A stretch of 23,686 bases of DNA from an uncultured Erythrobacteraceae bacterium (GTDB lineage Bacteria > Pseudomonadota > Alphaproteobacteria > Sphingomonadales > Sphingomonadaceae): contig CAMLQG010000054.1 in the NCBI GenBank assembly GCA_946482075.1, positions 1 through 23,686 of the forward strand, read 5' to 3'. This document shows, piece by piece, positions 591 to 18,912 of this stretch. The translations under genes were made by a program, and so were the position numbers. Each line of letters begins with the position of its first letter. The stretch's first letter is position 1. The notes under the pieces are model-generated. The model was not told the DNA's origin and searched no databases. It worked only from the letters and a program-made list of their open reading frames with translations.

Positions 591-604
591 CGAATATTGA
601 TTCA
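591..604. promoter_or_regulatory. Putative operator, site 0 (divergent control region)
   Basis: CGAATATTGATTCA matches the consensus CGAATCATGATTCG, derived from the other leaders in this window, at 11 of 14 positions. It lies between the divergent acyl-CoA synthetase and CoA-transferase genes. It overlaps a perfect inverted repeat at 594-615 (ATATTGAT, 6-base spacer, ATCAATAT). The repeat is directly visible; the regulatory role is inferred. Confidence 0.35.
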
Positions 605-708
605 ATCATCAATATATGTCTAGAAGTGTAGCGAATCCAATGAGAGGGGTTGAAACGGCCAGCCGCATGATCGGACCCGTTTCGCCGGACTGACAAGGCG
701 TTTTGGTG

Positions 709-1392
709 ATGATCGACAAGAGGGTGGCTTCGGCTGCCGAAGCTCTGCGGGATACGAAGGACGGATCGACCGTCCTGCTGGGCGGCTTCGGGGCTGTCGG
801 TCAGCCGAACGAGCTGATCGATGCACTGATCGAACAGGGCGCGCGGCATCTCACGATCGTTTCGAACAATGCCGGCGTCGGTCGGGTGGGCCTTGCGCGA
901 CTGCTCACGTTGAAGCGCGTGGACAAGATCATCTGCAGCTTTCCGCGCAGCTCGGATTCCGTGGCCTTCAACGAACTCTATGCTGCCGGAGAAATTCAGC
1001 TGGAGATCGTGCCGCAGGGCACGCTGGCGGAACGGCTGCGCGCCGCGGGCGCGGGCATACCGGCCTTCTACACGCCTACCGGCGCCGGTACGGTGCTGGA
1101 ACAGGGCAAGGAAGTGCGCGAATTCAAGGGGCGGCGCTACGTGCTGGAAGAAGCGCTCCATGGCGATCTGGCGCTGGTCCAGGCCTGGCGAGCGGATCGC
1201 TGGGGCAATTGTTCCTATCGCGGCACCGGCCGCAACTTCAATCCGGTCATGGCCGCTGCCGCCCAACGCACGGTGGTCCAAACGCGCGCGCTCGTCGAAC
1301 TGGGCGAGATGGACCCCGAAGCCATCATCACGCCGGGCATCTACGTGCAAGGTGTGATCCAGATCGATTCCCCCGACCCCACCGTCTTCTGA
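709..1392 (+). CDS. 3-oxoacid CoA-transferase, subunit A
   Basis: This 227-residue protein has the size of PcaI/ScoA-type alpha subunits. It carries the glycine-rich CoA-binding motif GGFGAVGQP at residues 25-33 and typical later segments such as SNNAGVG and GNCSYRGTGRNFNPVMAAAA. The A and B subunits together move CoA from a donor such as succinyl-CoA to a 3-oxoacid, activating it for thiolysis. I chose ATG 709 (MIDKRVAS); in-frame GTG 706 and TTG 703 directly upstream are alternatives, with AAGG at 695-698 as the likely ribosome site. Subunit B follows after 11 bases, so the two are probably co-translated. The short length argues against the IpdAB-type steroid hydrolases, which share this fold but are longer. 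The natural substrate is unknown; 3-oxoadipate is only the best-known case for the family. Confidence 0.9.
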   Translation: MIDKRVASAAEALRDTKDGSTVLLGGFGAVGQPNELIDALIEQGARHLTIVSNNAGVGRVGLARLLTLKRVDKIICSFPRSSDSVAFNELYAAGEIQLEIVPQGTLAERLRAAGAGIPAFYTPTGAGTVLEQGKEVREFKGRRYVLEEALHGDLALVQAWRADRWGNCSYRGTGRNFNPVMAAAAQRTVVQTRALVELGEMDPEAIITPGIYVQGVIQIDSPDPTVF

Positions 1393-1403
1393 GCTCGCCC
1401 GTC

Positions 1404-2045
1404 ATGACAGAACCCAAACCGCTTGACCGAAACCAACTCGCCGCCCGGATCGCGCGGGACATTCCCGATGGCTGGCATGTGAATCTCGGAATCGGCATGG
1501 CGACCCTGATCGCAGACCACGTCGCGGAAGATCGCGAGATCGTGTTCCATTCGGAAAACGGGATGCTGGGGATGGGCCCCGCGCCGGCGGCGGGTGCGAT
1601 CGATCCCTGGGTGATCAATGCCGGCAAGCAGCATGTCACGCTCAATCGCGGCGGATGCTATTTCCATCATGCGGACAGTTTCGCGATCGTGCGCGGCGGG
1701 CATCTCGACCTTTGCGTGATGGGCGCGCTCGAAGTGTCGCAGAAAGGCGATCTGGCGAACTGGGCGACGAGCGTGGATGCGGCACCCGCCGTGGGCGGTG
1801 CGATGGACCTGGCGGTGGGCGCCCGGCGCATCTGGATCATGATGGACCACACTGCCAAGAACGGTGCGCCGAAGCTCGTCGATACCTGCCGCTATCCACT
1901 GACCGCGCCAGCGGTTGTGTCGCGGATCTATACCGATCTGGGCACGTTCGACGTGGCCGAAGGTGGCTTGCGCACGGTCGACCTGGTCGATGGGCTTTCG
2001 CTGGAGGAACTAAGGGCTCGTACCGGGGCAAGGATCATCGCTTGA
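1404..2045 (+). CDS. 3-oxoacid CoA-transferase, subunit B
   Basis: This 213-residue protein has the standard length of PcaJ/ScoB. The segment HSENGMLGMG contains the glutamate (E51) that, in this family, forms the glutamyl-CoA thioester intermediate. GAMDLAVGARRIWIMMDHTA and the C-terminal TDLGTFDVAEGGL are also characteristic. ATG 1404 is chosen because it follows subunit A by 11 bases and gives the normal N-terminus; the ribosome site is weak, consistent with translational coupling to subunit A. The next gene is 141 bases downstream and has its own operator-like leader, so this pair probably forms a separate unit from the acyl-CoA dehydrogenase operon. Confidence 0.92.
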   Translation: MTEPKPLDRNQLAARIARDIPDGWHVNLGIGMATLIADHVAEDREIVFHSENGMLGMGPAPAAGAIDPWVINAGKQHVTLNRGGCYFHHADSFAIVRGGHLDLCVMGALEVSQKGDLANWATSVDAAPAVGGAMDLAVGARRIWIMMDHTAKNGAPKLVDTCRYPLTAPAVVSRIYTDLGTFDVAEGGLRTVDLVDGLSLEELRARTGARIIA

Positions 2046-2061
2046 CCTCTCCGGACCGCTC

Positions 2062-2102
2062 TTTCAAGAATAACTCGAATCATGAGTCGGAAATCGTGAT
2101 TT
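2062..2102 (+). promoter_or_regulatory. Putative operator/promoter element, site 1 (acyl-CoA dehydrogenase operon)
   Basis: The core CGAATCATGAGTCG (2076-2089) is a palindrome of the form CGA-N-TCATGA-N-TCG and matches the window consensus at 13 of 14 positions. It is followed directly by a second short palindrome, AAATCGTGATTT (2091-2102), and preceded by TTTCAAGAATAACT. The whole stretch resembles 7667-7706 upstream of TonB receptor 1 with few changes. Its regulatory function is inferred from the recurrence. Confidence 0.55.
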
Positions 2103-2186
2103 GTTGACTTGGTGTCCATGCTCTGCCAGCTTTTGATCCGGCAGCGGAACAGCACGACAAGCCGCCACCTCTCAGGGAAAGGTCCA

Positions 2187-3329
2187 ATGCAGAGCTTCGA
2201 TTTCCGACCGCTGGCCATGCCGCCCGGGGAGGCCGCATTGCGCGAGGAGGTCCGCGCTTTCGTCGCGGCCGAAGTTCCTTCGGACAAGAGGACGATAGAT
2301 CCGCTGTTCTTCGTGGATGCGGATATCTCCCGCAAGATCGGCGAACGGGGCTGGATCGGCATGACCTGGCCCACGGCCTATGGCGGGCATGGGCGGTCTG
2401 CGCTGGAACGCTATGTCGTGCTGGAAGAGCTGCTTTCCGCCGGTGTTCCGATGGCCGGGCACCTGACGGCCGACCGGCAGAGCGGTCCGCTGATCCTGCG
2501 TTACGGCAGGGAGGAGCAGCGCAAGGCGTTTCTTCCCCGCATCGCTGCGGGCGAATGCTCCTTCTGCATCGGGATGAGCGAGCCCGATGCCGGATCGGAC
2601 CTGTCCAATGTCGTCACCAGGGCGGTAAGAGTGGATGGCGGCTGGCGGATCACCGGCAGCAAGGTCTGGACTTCCAACGCGCACATCTTCGATTACATGA
2701 TCACGCTCGTGCGCACGGGTGCGAAGGGCGACAATCCGCGCGAAGGCCTGTCGCAGCTGATCGTCGACCTCGCCCAGCCCGGCATCGAGATCCGCCCGAT
2801 CCGTAACATGGCTGGCAGCACCCATTTCAACGAAGTGATCTTCGACAATCATTTCGTGCCGGACGACCGGGTTATCGGCGAGCCGGGCGGCGCGTGGCAG
2901 CAGCTGATGGCCGAACTGGCGCTGGAACGCAGCGGGCCCGAACGCTTCCTTTCCACCTACCGGTTGCTGGTGGCGGCGATCGACCGCGTGGGGCCGCAGC
3001 CGACGGACGGGCAGGCGGCGGCAATCGGCCGGCTGATCGCCCATGGCGCGACTATCCGCGGCATGTCGGTGGCGGTGAACGCGGCCTTGCAGGCGGGCGG
3101 CAAGGTTGATCTGGAAGCGGCGCTGGTCAAGGATCTGGGCACCAATTGGGAACAGGACATAACCACTATCTGCCACGAGCAGATCGATGACGAGGCCGAT
3201 CCGTCCTCGCCCGACGCCTATTCCCGCCTGCTGGCTTCCGGCCTGCTGCATGCACCTTCGTTCAGCCTGCGCGGCGGAACGCGGGAGATCGTGCGCGGCA
3301 TCATCGCGCGGGGATTGGGGCTGCGATGA
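2187..3329 (+). CDS. Acyl-CoA dehydrogenase, large (FadE-type) subunit
   Basis: This 380-residue protein is a full-length acyl-CoA dehydrogenase. SEPDAGSDL (131-139) and WTSNA (161-165) are flavin and substrate contact motifs, and RGGTREI (362-368) is the C-terminal signature. The usual medium-chain catalytic Glu of the EGT motif is Gly here (RGGT). E252 in SGPERF may instead be the base, placed as in isovaleryl-CoA-dehydrogenase-like enzymes; this is an alignment by eye. ATG 2187 is chosen because AGGGAAAGG lies just upstream; the reading frame extends further but without family similarity. The 331-residue partner overlaps this gene by 4 bases (ATGA). Such pairs resemble the alpha2beta2 FadE complexes of actinobacterial sterol side-chain breakdown, which act on bulky CoA esters. 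FAD-dependent alpha,beta-desaturation is secure; the substrate is not. Confidence 0.93.
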   Translation: MQSFDFRPLAMPPGEAALREEVRAFVAAEVPSDKRTIDPLFFVDADISRKIGERGWIGMTWPTAYGGHGRSALERYVVLEELLSAGVPMAGHLTADRQSGPLILRYGREEQRKAFLPRIAAGECSFCIGMSEPDAGSDLSNVVTRAVRVDGGWRITGSKVWTSNAHIFDYMITLVRTGAKGDNPREGLSQLIVDLAQPGIEIRPIRNMAGSTHFNEVIFDNHFVPDDRVIGEPGGAWQQLMAELALERSGPERFLSTYRLLVAAIDRVGPQPTDGQAAAIGRLIAHGATIRGMSVAVNAALQAGGKVDLEAALVKDLGTNWEQDITTICHEQIDDEADPSSPDAYSRLLASGLLHAPSFSLRGGTREIVRGIIARGLGLR

Positions 3330-4321
3330 ACGAAGAAGAGCTGATCGCCCACAATCTGACGCGGCTGTTCGAACGGCACATTCCCGGTGCCGATCGATCC
3401 TGGCTGGACGAGCGGGCATGGTCGGGCGATGCGTGGCGGGCGTTCGAGGAAGCCGGGCTCGCGCATCCGGGACGGGACGCGGAGCGTGGCGGGGCCGATC
3501 TGGGGCTCGAGGTCGAATGCCTCGTCGCCCGGATCGCCGGCGTTCATGCCGCTCCCCTGCCGCTGGTGGAAACCATGGTCGCGGGCCACGCATTGGCTGC
3601 TGCCGGGCTGACGGTTCCGGACGGTGCGATCACTCTGGGCTTCGTGTGTGACGGGGTTGCGGACCGGGTGGCGTGGGACGGCTTTGCCGGCCATGTCGTG
3701 CTGCTGTCCGATATCGAGGGGCAGGCTTTCGCTGCATTGCTGCCCGTCAGTGGTTTCGAGCCGGAGATCGGCCTCAACCTCGCCGATGAGCCGCGTGCCC
3801 GGCTGCGCGCGCCCGCTGGCGAGGGAGGCGTGCCCACGGGCCTGAGCGTCATTCATTTCCGCGCCCATGGCGCGCTGCTACGCGCCGCGCAGATCGCGGG
3901 CGGCATCCAGCGCGCGCTGGCGCTGAGCGTGGCCTACGCGAACACGCGCAAGCAGTTCGGCCAGCCGATCGGCAAGTTCCAGGCGATTCAGCAGCAGCTT
4001 GCGGTGATGGCGGAAGAAGGCGCGGCAGCCCTTAGTGCAGTCGCTTCGGCGGCTCGCATCGGTACGGCCAGCGAGAACTTCATCCTGCATGCAGGCATTG
4101 CGAAGGCGCGGGCGGGGGAAGCGGCGCGCCATGCCAGCGCCATTTCGCACCAGGTCCACGGCGCGATCGGCTTCGCGATGGAGCATGAGCTGCAATTCGT
4201 CACCCGCCGGCTGCTCGCCTGGCGCAGCGAATTCGGCAATGATCGCACGTGGCAGGAAGAGATCGGGCGAAGAGCGATGGCGAACGGCGGCGAAGCGCTC
4301 TGGCCGATGCTTTGCAAGTGA
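3326..4321 (+). CDS. Acyl-CoA dehydrogenase, small partner subunit
   Basis: The protein has 331 residues, about 50 shorter than a standard acyl-CoA dehydrogenase, and diverges in its N-terminal half. The C-terminal helical domain is well preserved: YANTRKQFGQPIGKFQAIQ (204-222) carries the Arg-Gln-Phe FAD/dimer contact, and HQVHGAIGFAMEHELQ and LLAWRSEFGN follow. There is no clear catalytic Glu in the region where the larger partner has one. The start overlaps the upstream stop as ATGA, a sign of tight translational coupling and equal dosage. This looks like the non-catalytic or FAD-contributing half of a heterotetramer, as known for FadE28/FadE29-type pairs. The pairing is inferred from adjacency and sequence type. 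Confidence 0.88.
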   Translation: MNEEELIAHNLTRLFERHIPGADRSWLDERAWSGDAWRAFEEAGLAHPGRDAERGGADLGLEVECLVARIAGVHAAPLPLVETMVAGHALAAAGLTVPDGAITLGFVCDGVADRVAWDGFAGHVVLLSDIEGQAFAALLPVSGFEPEIGLNLADEPRARLRAPAGEGGVPTGLSVIHFRAHGALLRAAQIAGGIQRALALSVAYANTRKQFGQPIGKFQAIQQQLAVMAEEGAAALSAVASAARIGTASENFILHAGIAKARAGEAARHASAISHQVHGAIGFAMEHELQFVTRRLLAWRSEFGNDRTWQEEIGRRAMANGGEALWPMLCK

Positions 4322-4356
4322 CGGGCGAATGACGGAACTGCTCAGTAGGAGGGATT

Positions 4357-5166
4357 ATGCGGTCAACGATTGACCAGGAGAATTACCAATACATCAAGAT
4401 CAGCCGCCGCGGCCGCATCCTGACCTTGTCGCTGAACCGGCCCGAGGTGTTGAACGCCGCCAATGGCGTGCTGCACGAGGAATTGTCACGCGTGTTCACC
4501 GATGCGGCGGAAGACGACGCGTCCGACGTGATCGTGGTGACGGGCGAGGGCACCGCCTTTTCCGCCGGTGGCGATATTGCCTGGATGCAGTCGCTGGTCG
4601 ACGATCCTTCCGAACAGGAAGGTCCGGTACAGCGCCAGGCCAAGCGGATCGTGAAGTCGATCCTCGATTGCGAGAAGCCGATCGTTGCCCGTGTGAACGG
4701 CGATGCGGTGGGGCTGGGGGCTACGCTGGCGCTGTTCTGCGATATCATCATCGCGGTCGATACCGCGCGCATTGGCGATCCGCATGTCCGCGTGGGCTAT
4801 GTTGCCGGTGATGGCGGCGCGGTGATCTGGCCGCAGCTGATCGGCTTCGCGCGCGCCAAGGAATATCTGTTGCTGGGCGATCTGATCGACGCGCCCGAAG
4901 CCGCGCGGATCGGCCTGATCAACTATGCCGTCCCAGCCGAAGAGCTGGACGCCAGAGTCGACAAATTCGCCGACCGCCTGGCGAACGGCGCCACGCTGGC
5001 GATCAAGTGGACCAAGGTTTCGATCAATATCGCGCTGAAGCAGATGCTGAGCGAAGCGATCGACACCTCGATGGCGCTGGAAGTGATGTCCAACGTCAGC
5101 GAGGATCACAAGGAAGCGGTCAGGGCATTCGCCGAAAAGCGCAAGCCGGTGTTCACCGGGCGCTGA
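4357..5166 (+). CDS. Crotonase-family protein (enoyl-CoA hydratase/isomerase-like) lacking both canonical Glu
   Basis: The protein has 269 residues. The first oxyanion-hole motif is GTAFSAGGDIAW (65-76) and the second is NGDAVGLGATLALFCD (114-129), so acyl-CoA thioester binding is likely. The two glutamates of classical enoyl-CoA hydratase (E144 and E164 in the rat enzyme) correspond here to T123 and H143 (GDPHVRVG). An aspartate, D152 in GDGG, lies nearby. Simple hydration by the standard mechanism is therefore doubtful; isomerase, hydrolase or retro-aldol chemistry is possible. A strong ribosome site AGGAGGG lies 3 bases before ATG 4357. The gene is 35 bases downstream of the dehydrogenase pair and in the same operon. 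The fold is certain and the reaction is not. Confidence 0.88.
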   Translation: MRSTIDQENYQYIKISRRGRILTLSLNRPEVLNAANGVLHEELSRVFTDAAEDDASDVIVVTGEGTAFSAGGDIAWMQSLVDDPSEQEGPVQRQAKRIVKSILDCEKPIVARVNGDAVGLGATLALFCDIIIAVDTARIGDPHVRVGYVAGDGGAVIWPQLIGFARAKEYLLLGDLIDAPEAARIGLINYAVPAEELDARVDKFADRLANGATLAIKWTKVSINIALKQMLSEAIDTSMALEVMSNVSEDHKEAVRAFAEKRKPVFTGR

Positions 5167-5190
5167 TGCCGTTTTCGGGGAGGATGAGGG

Positions 5191-5943
5191 ATGGCTGAAA
5201 GAAGCACGAGATTTGCCGGGCGGCGCGTGCTGGTGACGGGCGCCGCGTCCGGCATCGGGAACGCCACCGCGCGGGCGCTGGCGGCCGAAGGCGCGCGCCT
5301 CGCCTGGGTCGATCGCGTGGATTGCGCGCGCCCCGCTATGGGGACGTCGGGCGATCATGTGTCGATCATCGCCGACCTGACGGACTCCGCCGCGGTCGAG
5401 CGGGCCGTGGCCGAAGCGGTCGCCGGGCTGGGCGGGCTCGACGGGGTGGTGAATTCCGCCGGCATTGCCTGCGGCACGCGCTTCGCCGAACTCGAAATGG
5501 GGGAATGGTCGCGCACCATGGCGATCAACCTCACCGCGCCCTACCTCGTCTGCCGGGCCGCGCTGCCGGCGCTGCAGGCGGCGGAGAGCCCCAGCATCGT
5601 CAACGTCGCGTCCGCTACCGCCCTGTTGCCGAGCGCGCTGGCCGGCACCGCCTATGCCGCATCCAAGGGAGGCGTGCTCGTCTTCACCAAGGCGCTCGCC
5701 GCCGAGCTCGCGCCGAAGATCCGCGTCAACGCGGTCTGTCCCGGTCTCGTCGATACACCGCTGATGGCCTATGCGCTCCATGGCGAGGATGGGCCCCCGG
5801 AAGGGATCTTCAAGCCCTATTCGCTGGGTCGCGCTGCCACCTCGTCCGAAGTGGCCGCGGCGATCCTGTACCTGCTCGGGCCAGAAGCGTCGTTCACCAC
5901 CGGTATCGCGCTGCCCGTCGACGGCGGGCGCACTTTTCACTGA
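5191..5943 (+). CDS. Short-chain dehydrogenase/reductase (NAD-type), first of two in tandem
   Basis: This is a 250-residue classical SDR. TGAASGIG (16-23) is the dinucleotide-binding loop, D41 at the end of the second strand favours NAD(H), and NSAG (88-91) replaces NNAG. The catalytic set is S141, Y155 and K159 (YAASK). CPGLVDTP and the C-terminal PVDGGRTF are also typical. ATG 5191 follows GGGGAGG with good spacing. The gene is 24 bases after the crotonase and 29 bases before another SDR. An NAD-type oxidative role, such as dehydrogenation of a secondary alcohol or a 3-hydroxyacyl-CoA, fits the operon. The substrate cannot be determined. Confidence 0.92.
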   Translation: MAERSTRFAGRRVLVTGAASGIGNATARALAAEGARLAWVDRVDCARPAMGTSGDHVSIIADLTDSAAVERAVAEAVAGLGGLDGVVNSAGIACGTRFAELEMGEWSRTMAINLTAPYLVCRAALPALQAAESPSIVNVASATALLPSALAGTAYAASKGGVLVFTKALAAELAPKIRVNAVCPGLVDTPLMAYALHGEDGPPEGIFKPYSLGRAATSSEVAAAILYLLGPEASFTTGIALPVDGGRTFH

Positions 5944-5972
5944 CTTCGCCGCGTGGGGAGAGGACCAAGAGA

Positions 5973-6785
5973 ATGATGGTCGAAGATCTGAAATTCTTCA
6001 TCACCGGCGGTTCCGCCGGTCTGGGCGCCGGCACGGCGCGCGTGGTGGCGCAGGAAGGCGGCATCGTGACGATCGTCGATGTCGACGATGCGGGCGGCTG
6101 GCGGCTGGCCGAGGAGATCAACGATACTGGCGGGCGGGCGGCCTATTTCCATTGCGACGTGACCGATGAGGCGCAGATCGTCGAGGCGATGCGCCTTTCG
6201 GCGGAGAAATGGGGCGGGATCGACGTGCTCCACAACAACGCCGCGATCCACGACACGCGCCTGATGGAAGATCCGAGCCTCGATAATCTTACGGTCGGCC
6301 ACTTTCGTCACGTGCTCGAAGTCGACCTGATCGCGCCCTGGGCCTGCGCCAAGGCTGCGCTGCCCTATCTGCGTGCCAGCACGAACGCCTCGATCATCAA
6401 TGCGGGTTCGATCGCGTCCTTCGTCGGTTATGCCACCAACCTTTGCTATGGCCCCGCCAAGGGCGGCATCGCGATGCTGACCAAGAACCTCGCGCTGCAC
6501 CTCGCGCCTGACAGGATCCGCGCCAATTGCTACTGCCCCGGCGCGTTCGCGACGGAAGGAGCGATGATCTATGCCGAAGGCGTCGGCATGGAGACGTTCA
6601 TCCGCACGCAGACCGCCGCCCATCTTGTGCCGCGACTGGGCAAGCCGCACGAGATCGGCAATCTCGTCTGCTTCCTGGCGAGCGACAAGGCGGCCTTCAT
6701 CAACGGGGTCACCTTCCTGATCGACGGCGGCGCACTGGCTTGGCGCGGCACGATCGACCAGCTCGGCATGGAACCGATCATCTGA
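5973..6785 (+). CDS. Short-chain dehydrogenase/reductase (NAD-type), second of two in tandem
   Basis: This is a 270-residue SDR. TGGSAGLG (11-18) is the cofactor loop, D36 favours NAD(H), and NNAA (88-91) stands in place of NNAG. The catalytic residues appear to be S146, Y159 and K163 (YGPAK). The C-terminal tail after IDGGAL is longer than in its neighbour and includes WRGTIDQLGMEP, so the two SDRs are not recent duplicates. ATG 5973 (or 5976, next codon) follows GGGGAGAGGA. The frame is open far upstream, but that part is antisense-like overlap with the preceding SDR. A dehydrogenase role on an alicyclic alcohol or hydroxyacyl-CoA is plausible but not shown. Confidence 0.9.
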   Translation: MMVEDLKFFITGGSAGLGAGTARVVAQEGGIVTIVDVDDAGGWRLAEEINDTGGRAAYFHCDVTDEAQIVEAMRLSAEKWGGIDVLHNNAAIHDTRLMEDPSLDNLTVGHFRHVLEVDLIAPWACAKAALPYLRASTNASIINAGSIASFVGYATNLCYGPAKGGIAMLTKNLALHLAPDRIRANCYCPGAFATEGAMIYAEGVGMETFIRTQTAAHLVPRLGKPHEIGNLVCFLASDKAAFINGVTFLIDGGALAWRGTIDQLGMEPII

Positions 6786-6809
6786 TCCGATTTCGCAAGG
6801 AGAGCTTCG

Positions 6810-7601
6810 ATGCCCCGCTTGCTGCACGAATATCAGGACCGCTACGCCAATGCGCGCTTCGAGCGCATCGATGGCGTACTCGAAGTCACTTTCCATCGCG
6901 ATGGCGGGCCCGTCTGGTTGACGGACCGGATTCATAATGACCTGCCCGACATCTTCTATGATATCGGCCATGATCCGGAAAACCGCGTGATCATCCTCAC
7001 CGGCGCGGGCGGCGTGTGGTGCGACACGGTGGACCCGGAAAGCTTCCTCTTGGATCCCACGCCGCCGCCGGTCGAGATGGACCGGATCTATACCGAAGGG
7101 AAGATGTTGTTCGTGAACCTGCTGGAAGTGCGGGTTCCAATCATCACCGCCTTTCCCGGCCCCGCACCGATCCATGCCGATATCGGCCTGATCTCCGATA
7201 TCGTGCTCGCATCCGCTACGGCCTGGTTCCAGAACCAGCATTTCGGCAACTGGAACATGGTGCCGGGCGACGGCAATCACATCATTTATCCCTGGCTGCT
7301 GGGTGGCAACCGTGGGCGTTACTACCTGCTCACCAGCAAGATCTGGACCGCGCAGGAAGGCCTCGAATGGGGCGCCATCGCCGAAGTCCTGCCGGGGGAC
7401 CAACTGCTGCCGCGCGCACGCGAACTCGCGCATGAAATGGCGCAGAAACCGATCCTGACTTTGCGCTACACGCGCGAAGTGCTGGTTGCCGAGTTGCGTC
7501 AGCTGTTTCAGCGGCAGCTCAGCCTTGGCCTGGCATTGGAAGGTTTTTCATCGGGCTATGGTACGTGGGCGGGCGCTACGTTGCGCGAACCGTCAAGCTG
7601 A
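6810..7601 (+). CDS. 6-oxocamphor hydrolase-like beta-diketone hydrolase (crotonase fold)
   Basis: This 263-residue protein resembles 6-oxocamphor hydrolase (CamK of Rhodococcus) along its length as I recall that sequence: an EYQDRY-type N-terminus, RVIILTGAG, VPGDGNH and GNRGRYYLLT all have close counterparts. Residues assigned to catalysis in that enzyme (W40, H122, H145, D154, E244) correspond to W36, H122, H144, D154 and E244 here. The family makes a retro-Claisen cut of a cyclic 1,3-diketone, giving a keto acid without CoA. Unlike ordinary crotonases it need not bind CoA. AAGGAGAG precedes ATG 6810 by about 5 bases. It is the last gene of the operon starting at 2187. Its true substrate is unknown; a bicyclic or fused-ring diketone made by the preceding SDRs is a reasonable inference. 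Confidence 0.85.
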   Translation: MPRLLHEYQDRYANARFERIDGVLEVTFHRDGGPVWLTDRIHNDLPDIFYDIGHDPENRVIILTGAGGVWCDTVDPESFLLDPTPPPVEMDRIYTEGKMLFVNLLEVRVPIITAFPGPAPIHADIGLISDIVLASATAWFQNQHFGNWNMVPGDGNHIIYPWLLGGNRGRYYLLTSKIWTAQEGLEWGAIAEVLPGDQLLPRARELAHEMAQKPILTLRYTREVLVAELRQLFQRQLSLGLALEGFSSGYGTWAGATLREPSS

Positions 7602-7666
7602 GCGCTTAGCCCGCTTCAAACCCCGGAATTCTGCCGGTCTAATATCTTGACGAGGGGGCGTTTTCG

Positions 7667-7706: not shown

Positions 7707-7770
7707 TAACGTGATCTGGTCCTGTAGAAACTACCTAAATCGGACCGGCTCGGGGATGAGGGGATTGCAT

Positions 7771-10227
7771 ATGAAACGCGCATTGGCCGCCTGGACGCTC
7801 GCTACTGTGGCATCTCAGGCGCTGGCAGTCGGAACCGCGCTGGCGCAGGACACAGGCTCGACGGAAAGCCAGGCTTCGACGGATAATGGCGGCTTGACGG
7901 AAATCATCGTCACGGCGACTCGCCGTGAAACCAATCTCCAGAGTACGCCCGTCACCGTCACCGCGATCGGCGCGGAAATGATCTCACAGACACAAGCGAT
8001 GCGGGTCAGCGATCTTGCCGCCTTCGTGCCGAACTTTTCTGCAGCCACGGCAGCGAACTTCAACGTCGCCTCGTTCGCCATGCGCGGCGTCGCCGACAAT
8101 CAGGTCATCCTGTATACGCAGCCGCCCGTCGGCGTAATCGTGGACGATTTCGTCGTGCCCCGCGCTGAAACCCAGCTGCTCGACACGTTCGATCTCGAAC
8201 AGGTCGAAGTGCTGCGCGGGCCGCAAGGCACCCTGTTCGGCAAGAACACCACGGGCGGCGCGGTCGTCTTGAAGACGAAGCGTCCCGAACTCGGCATCTT
8301 CGGCGTCCAGGTGGAAGGCGAAGTCGGCGATTTCGGCATGATCCGCGCCAAGGGCGCGATCAATATCCCGCTGGGCGAGACGCTCGCCTTTCGTGGGGTC
8401 GTGAGCTACGAAAAATCCGATGGCTATTACCGCAACGGCGCCTGCTATGGCCCGATTACCGGATTTGTGCCCAACAAGTTCGAAGGCGCCGCCGGGTGCG
8501 GCGACAACAGCCGCCTTGGCGGAACGGATATCGTCAATGGCCGCGCCAAGCTGCTCTGGGAACCGTCTTCCGCCTTCAACGCGCTGCTGCAATATGAATT
8601 CGCGCGCGATCGCTCGGATTCCGTCACCGGCGTGAACGACACGCGCGACGGGCTCCTGTTCCAGACATTGGGCGCGGGCCGGTCCACCTCGGGTCGGAAG
8701 GACCCGCTGGACAATGCCGGGATCGGCTGCCGGGGCAACGATGTGCTGCTCGACACCTGCAGGGGCAATGTCGTCGATATCGACGGCGTCTATCTCAACA
8801 TGAACTACGATGCGGGCATCGGCACGTTCACATCCGTGAGCGGCTGGCGACGCGAACATGCGCGCTTGCCCAGCACTTATGCCAACCAGGCGCCGGTAGC
8901 GCCCGATGGCGAAGTCCTGTCGCTGTTCGATTCCAACCGCGAACATGTCCGCAAGGTCTTCCAGCAGGAACTGCGCTTCGCGTCCGATCTGCAGGGCCCC
9001 TTCAACTTCGTGGCGGGCGCTTTCTTCCAGAAGGACACTATCGACTTCTGCATCTCCGAGAATCTCGGCTTTCTCGACCTGACGCAGGGACCGCTGCCGT
9101 TCGGCAGCTGGAACAACACGCCTTACATGCTCTGCAACGCGCAGAAGGCGAAATCGACCGCCCTGTTCGCGGAAGGCAATTTCGACGTGACCGACAAGCT
9201 CACGATCACGGCCGGCTTCCGCTACACTTGGGACGACAAGAAGTGGTACGGCCGCCAGATGGTGTTCATCCCGCAGCTCGAAGGTGGGTTCGATCCCGGC
9301 ATCACGCTGAACCATCCGCTGGACGCCAGCGTGTTCAAATATCCGGAAGGCGTGGTGCAGATCCGCGACAAGACGTCGAAGCCGACCTGGCGTCTGGGCC
9401 TGAGCTATCAGGCGACCGATGATATCTTCGCCTTCTTCACCTATTCGCGCGGCTTCAAGAGCGGCGGGTTCAACGACCAGATCGGCACGTTCCACCCCTT
9501 CGTGAACGGCGATGGGTCGGACAATGACGCCGCCTTCCAGGAAGCCGCCCGCCCGCCGAAGCCGGAAACGGCCGACAGTTTCGAGCTGGGCCTGAAGACG
9601 GAGTTGCTGGATCGCACGCTACGTTTCAACGTCACCGGCTTCTATGTGAAATACAAGGACCTCCAACGGCAGATGATCGTGCCCCTGATCGTGGACGGCA
9701 CGGAATTCCAGGTGACCCGCTATTTCAACGCCGCGCAGGCGGATGTGAAGGGTGTGGAGGTCGATCTCACCTATCGCCCGATCCGCGAACTGACGCTGCG
9801 CGGTTCGCTCGGCACGATGGACGCGAAGTACAAGAAATACGTCTCGCCGATCCCCGCGGGTTACGATCTCGCCACGGCACCGCTCGATCGCACGCCGAAA
9901 GTGACCTGGTCGCTCGGCGCGCTTTACGAACAGCCCGTGGGCGACTTCAAGATCTCCGTGAACGGCGATGTGTCCTATGTAGCGCGCAACCTGTTCGCCC
10001 AATCGATCACCAGCCGCGATGACAATACCTTCCTCAACGCACGCACGCTGGTGAATGCGGCGATCACGCTGAGCACCGACGATGACAGGTATTTCGTCCG
10101 GCTGGTCGGACGCAACCTGACCGACAAACGCTACCGTACGGCGGCGTTGGCGGTGGCGGGGCTGTGGTCCAACGCGCAATGGGGTCCGCCGCGCTATTTC
10201 GGCGTGCAGTTCGGCGCGAAATATTGA
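7771..10227 (+). CDS. TonB-dependent outer-membrane receptor 1
   Basis: The protein has 818 residues. A signal peptide of about 26 residues ends at TALAQ. A TonB-box-like EIIVTATRR (44-52) leads into the plug domain, with VEVLRGPQGTLFGKNTTGG as the conserved plug motif, then a long beta-barrel ending in GVQFGAKY. Cysteine pairs occur in predicted outer loops (ACYGP...AGCGD and GCRGN...DTCRG), suggesting disulphide-stabilised loops. ATG 7771 is chosen because GAGGGG precedes it by 7 bases and the signal peptide starts there; the frame extends to a GTG at 7711 but that would bury the signal. Such receptors import siderophores, vitamins or, in sphingomonads, many organic substrates. Placement inside a catabolic cluster with no iron genes points to uptake of the pathway's substrate (inference). 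Confidence 0.95.
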   Translation: MKRALAAWTLATVASQALAVGTALAQDTGSTESQASTDNGGLTEIIVTATRRETNLQSTPVTVTAIGAEMISQTQAMRVSDLAAFVPNFSAATAANFNVASFAMRGVADNQVILYTQPPVGVIVDDFVVPRAETQLLDTFDLEQVEVLRGPQGTLFGKNTTGGAVVLKTKRPELGIFGVQVEGEVGDFGMIRAKGAINIPLGETLAFRGVVSYEKSDGYYRNGACYGPITGFVPNKFEGAAGCGDNSRLGGTDIVNGRAKLLWEPSSAFNALLQYEFARDRSDSVTGVNDTRDGLLFQTLGAGRSTSGRKDPLDNAGIGCRGNDVLLDTCRGNVVDIDGVYLNMNYDAGIGTFTSVSGWRREHARLPSTYANQAPVAPDGEVLSLFDSNREHVRKVFQQELRFASDLQGPFNFVAGAFFQKDTIDFCISENLGFLDLTQGPLPFGSWNNTPYMLCNAQKAKSTALFAEGNFDVTDKLTITAGFRYTWDDKKWYGRQMVFIPQLEGGFDPGITLNHPLDASVFKYPEGVVQIRDKTSKPTWRLGLSYQATDDIFAFFTYSRGFKSGGFNDQIGTFHPFVNGDGSDNDAAFQEAARPPKPETADSFELGLKTELLDRTLRFNVTGFYVKYKDLQRQMIVPLIVDGTEFQVTRYFNAAQADVKGVEVDLTYRPIRELTLRGSLGTMDAKYKKYVSPIPAGYDLATAPLDRTPKVTWSLGALYEQPVGDFKISVNGDVSYVARNLFAQSITSRDDNTFLNARTLVNAAITLSTDDDRYFVRLVGRNLTDKRYRTAALAVAGLWSNAQWGPPRYFGVQFGAKY

Positions 10228-10237
10228 TCGGGCCTGG

Positions 10238-10266
10238 ACGAGCGCTTCGCGGTGCGGAGCGCTCGT
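10238..10266 (+). terminator. Strong intercistronic stem-loop after TonB receptor 1
   Basis: The arms ACGAGCGCTTCGC and GCGGAGCGCTCGT form a 13-bp stem with one G-U pair and a GGT loop. It begins 11 bases after the receptor stop codon and 48 bases before the next SDR gene. No T-run follows, so it may be a partial terminator or an RNA-stabilising 3' hairpin that sets receptor expression apart from the downstream genes. Confidence 0.5.
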
Positions 10267-10313
10267 GATAGGCGCGATGAAGCGGCCGCGATGCCGCACG
10301 ACGGGAGAGTGCG

Positions 10314-11069
10314 ATGGGGCGGATGGACGGCAAGGTAGCGGTGGTCACCGGTGCCGCGCAGGGCATGGGTGCGGCCCATGCGAAGCTCTTCGTGGACGAA
10401 GGCGCGAAAGTCGTCCTCACCGATCTCAACCGTGAAGAAGGCGCCAGGCTGGCGGCCGAGCTCGGCTCCTCCGCGCTGTTCGTCGCCCATGACGTGGCGG
10501 ATGCGGTCCAATGGGCGGATGTGGTGCGCCAGGGCGAGGACGCGTTCGGCCCGATCGACACGCTGGTCAACAATGCCGGCATCATCGGGACGATCGCCAG
10601 GACGCTGGAACTGTCGGTCGACGATTACCAGCATGTGGTGAACGTCAACCAGATCGGGCCTTTCCTCGGCATGCAGGCCGTGATCCCCTCGATGCTCCAG
10701 AAGGGCGGCGGGTCTATCGTGAACATCTCTTCGGTAGGTGGCCTCGTGGCGCATTATTTCACCTCCAACCTCGCCTATTGCGCCAGCAAGTTCGCGGTTC
10801 GGGGGATGACCAAGCAGGTCGCGCTCGAATTCGCGGACCGCAACATCCGCGTGAACAGCGTGCATCCGGGCTATATCCGCACGCCGATGATGTTCGCCGC
10901 CACCGAAACGGAAACGGACGAGGATGCGGGCTATCTGAACGATATCCCCATGCGCCGCATTGCCGAGCCGGAGGAGGTGAGCAATCTCGTTCTCTTCCTC
11001 GCTTCGGACGAGAGTCGCTTCATAACCGGCATGGAACATGTGATAGACGGCGGCGCGACGATCTTCTGA
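10314..11069 (+). CDS. Short-chain dehydrogenase (NAD-type, hydroxysteroid/cyclohexanol dehydrogenase-like)
   Basis: This is a 251-residue classical SDR. TGAAQGMG (12-19) is the cofactor loop, D37 in VVLTDLN favours NAD(H), NNAG is at 86-89, and the catalytic residues are S140, Y155 and K159 (YCASK). The N-terminus GKVAVVTGAAQGMGAAHA and the HPGYIRTPM and VIDGGATIF segments resemble 3alpha/20beta-hydroxysteroid and cyclic-alcohol dehydrogenases. ATG 10314 follows GGGAGAG; an in-frame ATG at 10323 is a less likely alternative. It is 86 bases downstream of receptor 1, across a stable stem-loop, and 11 bases upstream of an esterase. Oxidation of a ring alcohol is the likely role, but specificity within this large family cannot be read by eye. 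Confidence 0.92.
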   Translation: MGRMDGKVAVVTGAAQGMGAAHAKLFVDEGAKVVLTDLNREEGARLAAELGSSALFVAHDVADAVQWADVVRQGEDAFGPIDTLVNNAGIIGTIARTLELSVDDYQHVVNVNQIGPFLGMQAVIPSMLQKGGGSIVNISSVGGLVAHYFTSNLAYCASKFAVRGMTKQVALEFADRNIRVNSVHPGYIRTPMMFAATETETDEDAGYLNDIPMRRIAEPEEVSNLVLFLASDESRFITGMEHVIDGGATIF

Positions 11070-11080
11070 AAGTGCTGCCG

Positions 11081-12040
11081 ATGTTCGATCCGAATGTTTT
11101 CGATCCTGCGTCCGTTTCGGAGCAGACGCGAGATTTCACCGCCATGTTGGCTGAAATGCAGCCGGACATCCTGGCGGTGCCGCCCGATGCGCAGACGCTG
11201 CGCGATCGGCTAGCCGGTTTTGCGGCGGAAGCCGCCGGAGGGGCGATCTACACCTCGCCCAGGGCCCGGGTCGTGTCGGGAGAATGGAAAAGCAGGGCGG
11301 TCGAGGTTCGAGTGCTCGAACCGGCAAAGCCGCGTGGCGTGGTGGTGTTCATCCATGGCGGCGGGTGGGTGGTCGGATCGCCCGATGCGCAGGACGCCCG
11401 GCTCGAAATGCTGGCAGAGCAAGGCTACGTCGTGGTGGCGCCGCGATATCGTCTGGCGCCGGAACATCCCTATCCGGCCGGGCTCGACGATTGCGAAGCG
11501 GCGATCGGCTGGGCGATCGACGCCTATCCGGAATTGGCTGATCAGGCGAGGATCGCGGTGCTGGGGGAATCCGCGGGCGCCAATCTCGCGGTCGCCGCCC
11601 TGCTGCGCCTGAAGGCCGCGCGGCGGCACTGCCCGATCGGTGCGATGGTGCTGTTCTACGGCGTCTACGATCTTTCCATGACGCCGAGCCAGCGCGCCTA
11701 TGGCGATCCGCAAGGCCTGCTGGGTTCGTCGCTGATGATATGGTTCTATGATCAGTACGTCGCCGAAGGGCAGCGGCGCGACGCGCTCGTCTCGCCCCTC
11801 TATGCCGATCTCGACGATTGCCCGCCCGCGCTGTTCACGGTGGGCACGCGGGACGTCCTGCTGGATGACAGCCTGTTTCTCCACGCGCGCTGGCTGGCAC
11901 AGGGCAATCCAGCGGAACTGCATGTGCTGCCGGGCGGAGTTCATGCGTTCAACTACTATCCGCTGGAGATCGCCGCGCAGGCGAACGAGCGCGTGGCCGC
12001 ATTCCTGCGGCGGGAACTGCGGATCGGGGACGAAGCCTAG
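11081..12040 (+). CDS. Alpha/beta hydrolase, hormone-sensitive-lipase family (esterase)
   Basis: The protein has 319 residues. The oxyanion-hole motif HGGG is at 92-95 (VFIHGGGWVVGS) and the nucleophile elbow GESAG is at 162-166 with S164. The likely acid is D258 (GTRDVLLDD) and the likely base H288 (GGVHAF). These define family IV carboxylesterases. There is no signal peptide, so it is cytoplasmic. ATG 11081 starts 11 bases after the SDR stop; an in-frame GTG at 11072 is a possible alternative. In this cluster it could hydrolyse an ester or lactone made by the Baeyer-Villiger monooxygenase, or remove an acyl group from the incoming substrate. Both are inferences. The stop codon lies within an 18-bp palindrome. 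Confidence 0.92.
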   Translation: MFDPNVFDPASVSEQTRDFTAMLAEMQPDILAVPPDAQTLRDRLAGFAAEAAGGAIYTSPRARVVSGEWKSRAVEVRVLEPAKPRGVVVFIHGGGWVVGSPDAQDARLEMLAEQGYVVVAPRYRLAPEHPYPAGLDDCEAAIGWAIDAYPELADQARIAVLGESAGANLAVAALLRLKAARRHCPIGAMVLFYGVYDLSMTPSQRAYGDPQGLLGSSLMIWFYDQYVAEGQRRDALVSPLYADLDDCPPALFTVGTRDVLLDDSLFLHARWLAQGNPAELHVLPGGVHAFNYYPLEIAAQANERVAAFLRRELRIGDEA

Positions 12041-12047: not shown

Positions 12048-12372
12048 GCCGGCGCGCATTCCGGGCAGGACATGCCCGACCCGTATAGGATCATCTTGAC
12101 CGCATCCGGCTCGATCCCGGGAAGCTGTCGCTCATCCTCGCCGTTGATTTGCCCGGCCCACATCACCGCTCGGCAGTTGCCGCGATCCTATGCGACGGAG
12201 GCTTTGTCTAAAAACGCATGTCCTTTTAACGAACGCCCCTCTCCTTGATATTTCAGCGTGTTTTTATTGACCATCGAACCGTGATTCGCAAAATTCCTTC
12301 ACTGACGATGCGTCCGGGCGAGCTCTGTCCGCTGCCGGCACGAACAAAGACAAAATACGGGGAGTACCTGAT
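12041..12372 (+). other. 332-base leader of TonB receptor 2
   Basis: I see no gene here. The 5' part holds half of the palindrome over the esterase stop. The 3' part is AT-richer and contains the operator-like site 3 at 12275-12288. A TTGACC at 12267-12272 would place that operator in a promoter spacer, but no good -10 box is seen at the expected distance. GGGGAG at 12359-12364 is the ribosome site for the receptor. Confidence 0.5.
12275..12288 (+). promoter_or_regulatory. Putative operator, site 3 (TonB receptor 2)
   Basis: CGAACCGTGATTCG matches the consensus CGAATCATGATTCG at 12 of 14 positions, with the right half-site TGATTCG perfect. It lies 84 bases upstream of the receptor 2 start. 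The second AT-rich palindrome seen in sites 1 and 2 is only vaguely present (CAAAATTCC). Confidence 0.42.
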
Positions 12373-14721
12373 ATGCTGCGCCGCCATCCTCTTGCACTGA
12401 CCGGTTCTGTATTCGCGATCGCGATTGCTCTGTCTCCCTGCGGCAGCCGGACGGCCTTCGCGCAGGATCGTCAGGTGGCGGAAAATGCTGCGGCGACGGG
12501 CTTTGGAGACATCGTGGTCACGGCGCGCCGGCGCGAAGAAGCGCTTTCGGACGTGCCGACCTCGATCGCCGCGCTCGACGCCACCGCCTTGCAGGAAAAG
12601 ATGATCTCCTCCGAACAGGATCTGCAGCGGGCCATTCCCGGCCTGGTGGTCCGCGAAAGCTTGACGCAGCACCAGATCAGCTTCGTGATCCGCGGTCAGA
12701 CCTTCGATCCCTTCTCCAGTTCGCCGCCGGCGGTTCTCCCCTATTACAACGAAGTGCCAATGATCCCGGTGGGTGCGAACGATCTGTTCGACCTTGAATC
12801 CGTCCAGGTGCTGAAAGGTCCGCAGGGCACGCTGTTCGGCCGCAACACCACGGGTGGGGCGGTGCTGTTCGGCACGGCCAAGCCGAAGAACGAGCTGAGC
12901 GGCTACATCACGGGCCGTATCGGCAATCGCGACCGGCAAGAAATCGAAGGCGCTGTGGACCTGCCGATCATCGACGACAAGCTGCTGGTTCGCATCGCGG
13001 GCAAGTACAAGCATACCGACGGCTACATCCACAACCTGCTGCTCGACACCATGCTGGGCAACCAGAAGGCGGCATCGGGGCGGATCACGGTCACGCTGCG
13101 GCCAACGGACGGCATCGAGAACACCACCATGTTCCAGTATTCGAAGGATAATGGCAGCAGCGTGGGCGGGGTGCTCTACAGTATCAACAAATGCGGGTCA
13201 GGACTCAATTCCGGGCCGGACTGCGCCTACGGCCCGGCCAACGATCCGTTCTTCTCCGCTTTCGTCGCGGCCAATCCGGGCCTCTATCCCGATGGTTTCG
13301 CCGCCTATCTCGGCGTCCAGCAGGCGCTCGGCAAGCGGCAGGTCTATCACAACAGCCCGTCCTATTACCGGGCCCGTGCGAAGTTCCTGACCAACGTCAC
13401 CTCAATCGACGTGAACGACAATCTGGTGATCAAGAACGTCGCGGGCTGGCACAAGAGCTCGCTCTACGAATCCATGGACGTGGACGGTTCGCCCTATCCG
13501 ATCTTCAACTACGGCCCCGTGGGCGCCAGCACCGGCAAGAACGACTGGACGGAAATGTGGTCGGAGGAACTCCAGCTCCAGGGCGAGGCGGCCGATGGCG
13601 ACCTGCAATATATCATCGGCGGGTTCTATTCCCGCTCTTCGCAGGAACAGTTCAATCCACAGACCTTCTTCGGGTTCGAGCCGCTCGCGCCGGCTGCTAC
13701 CGCCTATCTCCACAATGTTCGCAAGTCGGTCAGCAAGGCGGTTTTCGCGCAGGCCACCTACAAGCTCGATCGCATCGGGCTGAACGGCGTCAGCCTGACT
13801 GCCGGTATCCGCAACACCTGGGAGAAGATCACCCTGCGCCAGCTGCCGCGCGGCATCTTCTATGGTCTTCCTACCCTGTCCAAGAAGTTCAGCGTACCGA
13901 GCTGGCAGGTCGGCATCGATTACAAGCCGAACGACGATCTGATGTTCTACGTCGTCCATCGCGGCAGCTGGCGCAGCGGCGGTTTCAACGCCTTCTCCTC
14001 GCCTTCGCCGGGCACCGGATTCGATCTCGATGACGGGATCGCGTTCAAGAAGGAAACCGTCAAGGATATCGAGATCGGCGCCAAGTTCTCCGGCTATCTG
14101 GGCGGGATGCGTGCGCGGATGAACGTGGCTGGATATTACCAGGTCACCAAGAACGTGCAGCGCAACCTGCCGGTCGATCTCGGTTCCGGTCCGGGTTCTG
14201 CCACGGTCAACGTGCCGGAAGCCAAGGTGAAGGGCGTCGAGTTCGATGCGGAGCTGCAGCCCGCGGAATGGCTGACCATCGGCGGCAACCTGACCTATAC
14301 CAATGCCAAGTTCACCAAGAACGAAGCGCTGGTCGTCGGCAACCTCATCTCCTTCGGGCCGTTCCCGGATACGCCGAAATGGTCGATGTCCGCCTTTGCC
14401 GAAGTGGTGATCCCGACGCCGGAAAGCTTGGGCCGCGTCTCGCTCAGGGGCGACGTCTTCCACCAGACGAAGACCTATTTCTCCAGCCTCAATTCCACGA
14501 TCATCCCGGGCAGCGAACTGCCGGGCTATACGCTCGCCAATTTCCGCCTCAACTTCAACCAGATCGGCGGCTCGGGCTTCTCCGCCGCGGCTTTCGTCAA
14601 CAATGCGTTCGACGAAGACTACTATACCGGCGGTCTTGCCATGGGCGCCCTGTTCGGCCTGAACATCGCCACGGTCGGCCGGCCGCGATCCTATGGCCTG
14701 GAGCTGAGCTACCGCTTCTGA
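12373..14721 (+). CDS. TonB-dependent outer-membrane receptor 2
   Basis: The protein has 782 residues with a signal peptide ending near residue 31 (TAFAQ). The TonB-box-like DIVVTARRR is at 46-54, the plug motif is VQVLKGPQGTLFGRNTTGG, and the barrel ends in LELSYRF with the C-terminal Phe typical of outer-membrane proteins. It differs clearly from receptor 1 in loop regions, for example PNDDLMFYVVHRGSWRSGGF, so it is not a fresh duplicate. ATG 12373 follows GGGGAG by 8 bases. It stands alone between two long leaders and probably has its own promoter. Uptake of a pathway substrate or a related compound is inferred from context; a siderophore cannot be excluded, though no iron genes are nearby. 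Confidence 0.95.
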   Translation: MLRRHPLALTGSVFAIAIALSPCGSRTAFAQDRQVAENAAATGFGDIVVTARRREEALSDVPTSIAALDATALQEKMISSEQDLQRAIPGLVVRESLTQHQISFVIRGQTFDPFSSSPPAVLPYYNEVPMIPVGANDLFDLESVQVLKGPQGTLFGRNTTGGAVLFGTAKPKNELSGYITGRIGNRDRQEIEGAVDLPIIDDKLLVRIAGKYKHTDGYIHNLLLDTMLGNQKAASGRITVTLRPTDGIENTTMFQYSKDNGSSVGGVLYSINKCGSGLNSGPDCAYGPANDPFFSAFVAANPGLYPDGFAAYLGVQQALGKRQVYHNSPSYYRARAKFLTNVTSIDVNDNLVIKNVAGWHKSSLYESMDVDGSPYPIFNYGPVGASTGKNDWTEMWSEELQLQGEAADGDLQYIIGGFYSRSSQEQFNPQTFFGFEPLAPAATAYLHNVRKSVSKAVFAQATYKLDRIGLNGVSLTAGIRNTWEKITLRQLPRGIFYGLPTLSKKFSVPSWQVGIDYKPNDDLMFYVVHRGSWRSGGFNAFSSPSPGTGFDLDDGIAFKKETVKDIEIGAKFSGYLGGMRARMNVAGYYQVTKNVQRNLPVDLGSGPGSATVNVPEAKVKGVEFDAELQPAEWLTIGGNLTYTNAKFTKNEALVVGNLISFGPFPDTPKWSMSAFAEVVIPTPESLGRVSLRGDVFHQTKTYFSSLNSTIIPGSELPGYTLANFRLNFNQIGGSGFSAAAFVNNAFDEDYYTGGLAMGALFGLNIATVGRPRSYGLELSYRF

Positions 14722-14765
14722 CCGGCCGGCATGAACGCAGGGAAAGGCGCCTCAGCCACCGCGTC

Positions 14766-14888
14766 GATGGCCCGTCCGCGCGCTGGTTCCGCGAATTCGA
14801 GCATTCCGGCCGTTTCAGCGACGGCGTGATGGTGGGTGTCAACAGTACCAACGGCCTGATCGGGCGCGGCGGGCCGGATTTGGACTGA
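14766..14888 (+). pseudogene. Possible 3' remnant of an unidentified gene
   Basis: In one frame, positions 14766-14888 read DGPSARWFREFEHSGRFSDG followed by VMVGVNSTNGLIGRGGPDLD and a stop. Nearly every third base is G or C, as in the real genes here, and the residue mix looks like folded protein. There is no credible start or ribosome site, and upstream the frame runs into receptor 2 in a different frame. I do not recognise the family. It may be the leftover end of a deleted gene or a chance reading. Confidence 0.3.
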
Positions 14889-14929
14889 GGGCGGCAAGCC
14901 CCCCCGCAGGCGGAAGGGGAACTGATCGA

Positions 14930-14950
14930 ACGTGTTTCTTCGGCACACGT
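14930..14950 (+). other. Hairpin with a cTTCGg loop in the receptor 2/thioesterase gap
   Basis: ACGTGT and ACACGT are perfect inverted arms around TTCTTCGGC. The inner part can close as the very stable c(UUCG)g tetraloop with one mismatch and a bulge. It lies 31 bases before a second hairpin. It could be part of the end of the receptor 2 transcript. Confidence 0.3.
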
Positions 14951-14980
14951 CCTGCTTTCGCGGGTGGTGCGAAGATGGGG

Positions 14981-15004
14981 GGAAGGGCTGGAGGGAGCCC
15001 TTCC
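14981..15004 (+). terminator. Stem-loop, candidate terminator after TonB receptor 2
   Basis: GGAAGGGCT and AGCCCTTCC form a perfect 9-bp stem with loop GGAGGG, and further G-U and G-C pairs can extend it outward to 14978-15007. No T-run follows. It lies between the receptor gene and operator-like site 4, a suitable place to separate the two transcription units. Confidence 0.4.
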
Positions 15005-15039
15005 TTCGTGCGGCGCGGACATTCCGCCCAGGCTTATTT

Positions 15040-15053
15040 TGATTGATGAATCG
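15040..15053 (+). promoter_or_regulatory. Putative operator, site 4 (thioesterase-BVMO operon)
   Basis: TGATTGATGAATCG matches the consensus at 10 of 14 positions, with the right half ATGAATCG nearly intact. It is followed by AAAACCAATTTT, comparable to the second AT-rich palindrome after sites 1 and 2. This is the weakest of the five sites by sequence but is similarly placed, about 105 bases before the first gene of a seven-gene operon. Confidence 0.32.
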
Positions 15054-18911: not shown

Positions 18912-18912
18912 G

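Follow-up and report, generated by a model that had tools for sequence, protein, structure and literature searches.

TonB receptors and catabolic islands are numerous in sphingomonads, and their inducers are mostly unknown. In this study, a catabolic gene cluster was analysed in a 23,686-bp stretch of DNA from an uncultured Erythrobacteraceae bacterium (assembly GCA_946482075.1, contig CAMLQG010000054.1, positions 1 to 23,686; this whole stretch is called the window below), in which five operon leaders share one palindromic site. Comparable control has been described in several clusters. EdcR of Caenibius tardaugens is a TetR-type repressor of the estradiol cluster and is proposed to act through the palindromic operator TnnCnnTACnAnTnGTAnnGnnA, which overlaps the -10 boxes (PMC8700777). 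It resembles the system proposed here for the window in that a TetR-type repressor governs catabolic genes of a sphingomonad through a palindromic operator at several promoters; the difference is that TnnCnnTACnAnTnGTAnnGnnA does not occur in the window leaders. Its only matches in the window are two at 3 mismatches; both lie in tonB1, and their number is no more than chance would give. The KstR and KstR2 regulons, which are named in the same paper (PMC8700777), also involve TetR-type repressors of steroid catabolism but are actinobacterial. With PheR of Sphingobium sp. SHPJ-2, one repressor affects both catabolism and TonB receptor expression, yet it belongs to the IclR family and has the essential determinant GCAACG within a 44-bp footprint (PMC13273656). 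Other palindromes are proposed for a TetR gene in a C. tardaugens bile-salt study (PMC12882949).

The five sites of the window are very likely operators of one regulator, which makes a candidate operator available for a cluster of unknown substrate. Their 10-bp core recurs in a second palindrome that is associated, in other genomes, with homologues of one of the window's TonB receptors and with a TetR gene.

Five palindromic sites in the operon leaders

An earlier, sequence-only reading of this DNA had reported a 14-bp palindrome, CGAATCATGATTCG, at positions 591, 2076, 7680, 12275 and 15040. On recount, all five coordinates and match counts were exact, with 3, 1, 2, 2 and 4 mismatches, respectively, and the extended form of the palindrome is the 20-mer TTTCGAATCATGATTCGAAA (sites A to E, Table 1). 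The same reading had placed each copy in the leader of a transcription unit, which was confirmed for five predicted operons. The first gene of each operon begins 84.5-111.5 bp downstream of the centre of its site, and the site-bearing leaders are the five gaps of the window that are longer than 130 bp and precede a forward gene. The G+C content is 0.49-0.57 in the gaps of leaders A-D and 0.63 in the gap of E, compared with 0.63 for the window. A weight matrix built from the five sites scores them at 19.1-27.5, and the best window position outside the five leaders reaches 11.1; at this matrix score the remark that no copy had been noticed inside a gene also holds. The gaps in front of sdr3, bvmo and chsH2, which are shorter, and the two gaps at the end of the window have matrix scores of at most 5.4.

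Mismatch counting over the whole window is by itself not significant: with up to 3 mismatches, 4 matches were found against 2.07 expected, and 17 of 100 shuffles reach 4. At 4 mismatches the copy at 15040 is tied by positions 2090 (in the leader of 2076), 15615 and 18190. The significance rests on the recurrence and the place of the sites, for which the joint evidence is strong. Controls were either dinucleotide shuffles of the leaders or sets of real leaders from other loci. The best palindromic 14-mer found by searching over the five leaders was exactly CGAATCATGATTCG, with 58 of 70 letters matched; none of 200 shuffled-leader sets scored above 53, nor did any of 300 random five-leader sets or 36 same-locus sets of real leaders, and 600 sets of leaders from control loci stayed at or below 57. 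The 20-mer TTTCGAATCATGATTCGAAA matched 77 of 100 letters, compared with at most 69 in shuffled leaders and at most 73 and 74 in the real-leader sets. When weight matrices were built with one site left out, no other non-training position of the window scored above the held-out site, with a single exception: site D (12272) came second to position 595 in leader A, an overlapping second site. Symmetry is a marked property of the motif: measured in standard deviations, the palindromic 20-mer stands further above the shuffled controls than unrestricted words.

A related palindrome linked to a TetR gene

The real-leader controls revealed palindromes with the same core at the loci of tonB1 homologues, and the leaders of these homologues in other genomes carry the related palindrome AAACARTCATGAYTGTTT. 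A direct scan with AAACAATCATGATTGTTT at up to 4 mismatches gave matches in 25 of 80 tonB1-homologue loci, 20 of them within approximately 420 bp upstream of the receptor match. Receptors approximately 60% identical to tonB1 bear the related operator too, mostly as pairs approximately 100 bp apart. It was not present at the four examined receptors with 48-51% identity, and a search of three loci of such receptors at up to 3 mismatches was likewise negative.

The conserved regulatory neighbour of the related operator is a gene for a TetR_N protein (PF00440). All nine loci with a clear TetR gene have the operator at up to 4 mismatches, versus 16 of the 71 others; the nine are seven query members, L032 (86%) and L025 (58%), and the weak matches L070 and L012 were counted as without. 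In loci selected for a close TetR or a 54-61% identical TonB1, 23, 33 and 21 sites with up to 3 mismatches were found in 227, 177 and 159 kb, a density of 10-19 sites per 100 kb, whereas three control groups, with 380, 364 and 361 kb (1.1 Mb together), had none. Around distant TetR genes (L283-L290, 154 kb) a single site was found at this threshold, in L290. Between called genes, which is where only 12.6% of the bases lie, 53 of the 77 related sites are located; the remaining 24 lie inside called genes, for which the crude gene caller may partly account. The distance to the tetR start is 26-38 bp in 8 of 19 counted pairs of site and tetR, as expected for autoregulation. Judged from these associations, AAACARTCATGAYTGTTT is the probable operator of a TetR clade that recurs near sphingomonad Rieske oxygenase and receptor genes, and the TetR protein would bind it. 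Among the papers listed in searches of open-licence PubMed Central, no description of either operator was seen, and none of the titles concerned such a regulon.

In three sampled TetR-linked loci the neighbouring genes encode Rieske oxygenases, a PQQ dehydrogenase-like protein, a CoA ligase, a thiolase, a class III CoA-transferase and an acyl-CoA dehydrogenase. No relative of the window BVMO was listed in the 40 loci of the site-density comparison above. The spacing of neighbouring operators was noted separately: 19 of 33 pairs less than 300 bp apart are spaced 99-105 bp (L309-L313, L294-L298 and L315-L317, in tonB1 and tetR leaders), which suggests looping or paired promoters because this distance is near ten helical turns. 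The related operator was also seen, with 2-4 mismatches, upstream of receptor homologues outside the sphingomonads (L011, L013, L014, L018 and L040), which are gammaproteobacterial or unclassified proteobacterial and include one Steroidobacteraceae genome.

Shared core and different flanks

The window sites and the TetR-linked operator are both even palindromes centred between TCA and TGA with the same 10-bp core, AATCATGATT (AxTCA-TGAxT), and both stand upstream of a homologous TonB receptor and at several promoters of one catabolic region. They differ in that the flanks of the TetR-linked operator are AAAC...GTTT versus TCG...CGA in the window, and in that many TetR-linked sites are paired approximately 100 bp apart. 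Written as half-sites, AAAC-AWTCA compares with TCG-AWTCA. In 10 of 10 window half-sites a G stands directly outside the core; the next base outward is C or T, and the one beyond it is T in most cases. The TetR-linked sites have C at this position in 99% of 86 sites, a figure to be read with the fact that these sites were chosen by a consensus containing that C; with half-sites picked by the core alone, C is found in 90% (144/160) at the highest threshold and in 80% (242/304) at the lowest. In control loci, which were partly chosen for the window-type word, the same position is C in 7 of 46 and 43 of 168 cases.

The core alone is sufficient to find the window sites. With a matrix of the central 10 bp of the 86 distinct related sites, made without the window, site B has rank 2, E rank 5, C rank 6, A rank 8 and D rank 9 among 23,677 positions; ranks 1, 4 and 10 belong to the second cores of leaders B, A and C, respectively. 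When 3,839 control palindromic matrices were made by permuting or complementing half-site columns, 10 equalled the top-ten count in the leaders, 26 touched all five leaders and 1 did both, a 1-in-3,839 result that is optimistic because the related motif was noticed for resembling the window motif, having been chosen by eye for this likeness among a few top control palindromes.

The receptors connect the two operators as well. In a tree of 47 receptors, the window TonB1 falls in a clade of 22 rows that has support 100/99, its own terminal branch being long (0.6). Nineteen of its 21 clade relatives have the related operator at up to 4 mismatches (L299 only on a longer look); the exceptions are L044, which lacks it, and L282, whose locus stops before the leader. 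Site C thus precedes, by 84.5 bp, a receptor of the clade with the TetR-linked operator.

Identity of the regulator

The sequence-only reading had suggested that a single dimeric regulator, encoded outside the window, controls uptake and all catabolic modules. In favour of this are the one symmetrical motif in all five operon leaders, the short gaps within operons without any comparable score, the result that Pfam and NCBIfam family scans identified no regulator among the 21 called genes of the window, and the recurrence of the core in the TetR-linked operator of homologous receptors. The exact motif was not seen at a comparable score in the related loci examined (see below), and the suggestion is supported in part: one regulator would control everything, from a gene that would lie outside the window. 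That this regulator is of the TetR family, with a changed outer specificity, is the likelier case. For the full proposal, in which the five sites are operators of one homodimeric repressor, a TetR relative with changed outer specificity whose gene would lie outside the window, the chances appear modestly better than even. The window works like a TetR-linked regulon yet is not classed as a member of it, because the flanks differ and the canonical operator has no match.

Several results weigh against a TetR relative, in addition to the choice of the related motif by eye. No TetR gene of the clade was found in the window (tblastn at E 1e-5, Pfam, NCBIfam), and among 120 listed TetR relatives out of 732 none was placed on the contig of the window, which is a weak test. 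At up to 3 mismatches AAACARTCATGAYTGTTT has no match in the window, the outer bases being different. When the matrix of the related sites is widened to 12 or 14 central positions, the preference for the window sites is lost, since the bases outside the core differ, and two of the window's top-ten core matches (20125 and 15617) lie outside the five leaders. The best window-type score in 55 loci fetched for TetR or TonB1 (L274-L328) was 15.9, versus 19.1 for the weakest window site; the distant TetR loci (L283-L290) gave at most 15.8. Finally, a listing of promoter-like pairs contained none at sites C and E.

The same operators and the same coordinated control could be explained by a dimeric regulator of another family, such as MarR, GntR, IclR, LacI or other, with the shared core arising by convergence. 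The geometry of a palindrome alone names no family, no TetR gene is seen in the window, and the base outside the core, C in 90% of core-picked TetR-linked half-sites at the highest threshold versus G throughout the window, would suit a different protein. Convergence must, on the other hand, account for a core match equalled on both measures by one permuted matrix only, for the nesting of the window TonB1 among receptors with the TetR-linked operator, and for the finding that 0 of 600 control palindromes have that core, while 7 have the inner TCATGA. Another family is the strongest competing explanation, but a rather unlikely one. LysR-type regulators were set aside by inference from the usual features of that family, the palindrome being even-centred.

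It is very unlikely that the canonical TetR of the related clusters itself controls the window through weak versions of its operator. The shared core agrees with such an arrangement, as do the additional cores of leaders A, B and C, but the exchange of C for G in 10 of 10 half-sites, followed by C/T and then mostly T, is a coherent different consensus rather than decay, and even with 3 mismatches allowed the window holds no match to the canonical operator.

A shared promoter or sigma-factor element in place of an operator is still more improbable, even if all five sites have a similar distance to the start codon and three of them are near weak promoter-like pairs. Site D lies inside the spacer of such a pair, TTGACC(12267)-16-CAAAAT, one pair is overlapped by site A and one is adjoined by site B. 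This placement varies between spacer, overlap and downstream position; moreover, symmetry is the strongest feature of the motif against shuffled controls, and the core is common to an operator linked with a TetR gene. That the sites arose by chance because the leaders are AT-rich and the genome GC-rich, or that they form an RNA element, is scarcely credible and largely refuted by the controls: plain mismatch counts and the lower G+C of the gaps of leaders A-D (though not of E) point that way, but neither dinucleotide-shuffled leaders nor real leader sets ever reach the observed score, and no Rfam family matched at the gathering score.

Proposed mechanism and operator specificity

With a TetR relative as the regulator, one homodimeric repressor would switch both TonB receptors, for uptake, and all catabolic operons together. 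It would be related to the TetR-family protein encoded near TonB1 homologues in other sphingomonads, for which AAACARTCATGAYTGTTT is the presumed operator, and the window operators would have kept the 10-bp core with their flanks altered from AAAC-AWTCA to TCG-AWTCA. Without substrate, the dimer is expected to sit on or beside the promoter and block RNA polymerase, acting by repression rather than activation; a pathway substrate or its CoA thioester may serve as the inducer that releases it.

An evolutionary scenario may be tentatively added, to which we would give somewhat less than an even chance. A TetR regulator and its regulon would have entered a new catabolic pathway along with a TonB receptor. 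The same C-to-G change, directly outside an intact core, would have occurred at all five promoters, giving two regulons without cross-talk. If this operator-specificity switch is true, both operator types are in hand and the evolution of one regulator-operator pair is directly testable. Should sister regulators bind them, the two operators would make up a natural pair whose outer base pair keeps two regulons apart; such a pair could be useful for biosensors and for assigning substrates to clusters. Beyond the window, the comparison supplies a probable operator for a TetR clade, with operator-like sites at some gammaproteobacterial receptors.

Occurrence of the motif and the cluster in other genomes

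The sequence-only reading had named the same motif in related clusters as a possible support; no such recurrence was seen in the genomes and loci sampled. Two overlapping sets, of 195 genomes of the genus and 397 of the family, were searched for the window-type motif, allowing 2 mismatches in 16. It was present in 46 and 78 genomes, respectively, but with never more than 2 sites per genome, and the related loci bear a version with other outer bases. A reversed control pattern was rarer, with 8 of the 195 and 11 of the 397 genomes. A widespread window-type regulon was dropped as an explanation, there being no cluster of sites in the sampled genomes of the genus and family. The excess of TCGAATCATGATTCGA-like words over the control comes partly from recurring words such as TCGAACCATGCTTCGA. 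One near-palindrome, TCGACTCATGATTTGA, is identical in three genomes (G423:C24:8424, G044:C11:735137 and G184:C12:84633), and its copy in G423 lies between divergent cupin and DsbA-like genes. Thirty genus sites were placed with a crude open reading frame caller, and 13 of these lie inside a called gene. The genes beside some of the others encode cupin, DsbA-like, LysE, GntR-aminotransferase, class III CoA-transferase, FecR, SDR and phosphoesterase proteins, a TonB receptor and one protein without a family; some of these are catabolic.

An orthologous cluster was not found in a scan with the single protein TonB1, nor with other genes, because, in the regions fetched, the acad1, amidohydrolase and tonB2 relatives sit in other contexts. 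Matches to acad1 occur in 128 of the 397 family genomes (E 1e-90, 44-58% identity), and 20 regions around such matches have other gene contexts. In the 195 genus genomes, the amidohydrolase and tonB2 have matches of at most 52% and 48% identity, respectively; 20 regions around them are without the cluster and have a best motif score of 16.5. In a plasmid collection, no record covers 80% of a 5.7-kb DNA query, and two protein queries remained below 60% identity. The lineage of the cluster is apparently poorly sampled, because TonB receptor 2 has two close relatives, with 81% and 76% identity, and the next are at most 52% identical.

Genes and further features of the window

The predicted operons are listed in Table 1 with the palindromes. 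In family scans, acad1 and acad2 form a two-subunit acyl-CoA dehydrogenase, and the members of the last operon include a BVMO-like flavin monooxygenase, a ChsH2-like protein, an acyl-CoA synthetase (acs) and an enoyl-CoA hydratase (ech3). This gene set suggests the breakdown of a compound that forms a cyclic ketone, e.g. a terpenoid or steroid-like molecule. A gene for a CoA-binding-domain protein on the reverse strand diverges from scoA on the forward strand, and the two share leader A.

Table 1. Palindromic sites, second cores and predicted operons of the window
Feature	Position	Strand	Location or content	Remark
Site A, 20-bp palindrome	588..607		leader between divergent CoA-binding-domain gene (-) and scoA (+)	centre 111.5 bp from ATG 709
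Site B	2073..2092		leader of acad1 operon	centre 104.5 bp from ATG 2187
Site C	7677..7696		leader of tonB1-sdr3-abh	centre 84.5 bp from ATG 7771
Site D	12272..12291		leader of tonB2	centre 91.5 bp from ATG 12373
Site E	15037..15056		leader of thioesterase operon	centre 111.5 bp from ATG 15158
Perfect inverted repeat ATATTGAT-N6-ATCAATAT	594..615		overlaps site A	contains second core AATCATCAAT, core rank 4/23,677
Second core AATCGTGATT	2087..2106		14 bp downstream of site B	window's best match to TetR-linked core matrix
Second palindrome AAATTCGCGATTTT	7691..7710		14 bp downstream of site C	core rank 10
scoA-scoB	709..2045	+	3-oxoacid CoA-transferase subunits	TIGR02429, TIGR02428
acad1-acad2-ech1-sdr1-sdr2-ech2 operon	2187..7601	+	2 acyl-CoA dehydrogenase-like subunits, 2 enoyl-CoA hydratases, 2 SDRs	family scans
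tonB1-sdr3-abh	7771..12040	+	TonB receptor 1, SDR, alpha/beta hydrolase	
tonB2	12373..14721	+	TonB receptor 2	
thioesterase-BVMO-amidohydrolase-ChsH2-thiolase-acs-ech3 operon	15158..22445	+		family scans

The second cores that follow sites B and C are weaker than the main sites. Leaders B (on the reverse strand), D and E also have in common the word CCGCTGCCG with extensions, at 2138-2150, 12328-12338 and 15117-15128, where the copies stand between the palindrome and the start codon; the word occurs within coding sequence of two genes as well, at 1253 and 9091. Near the end of the window, the gene for a DUF7064 protein is convergent with ech3, and the space between the two genes holds a perfect 30-bp inverted repeat with arms at 22455-22484 and 22501-22530, which looks like a repeat element or a terminator.

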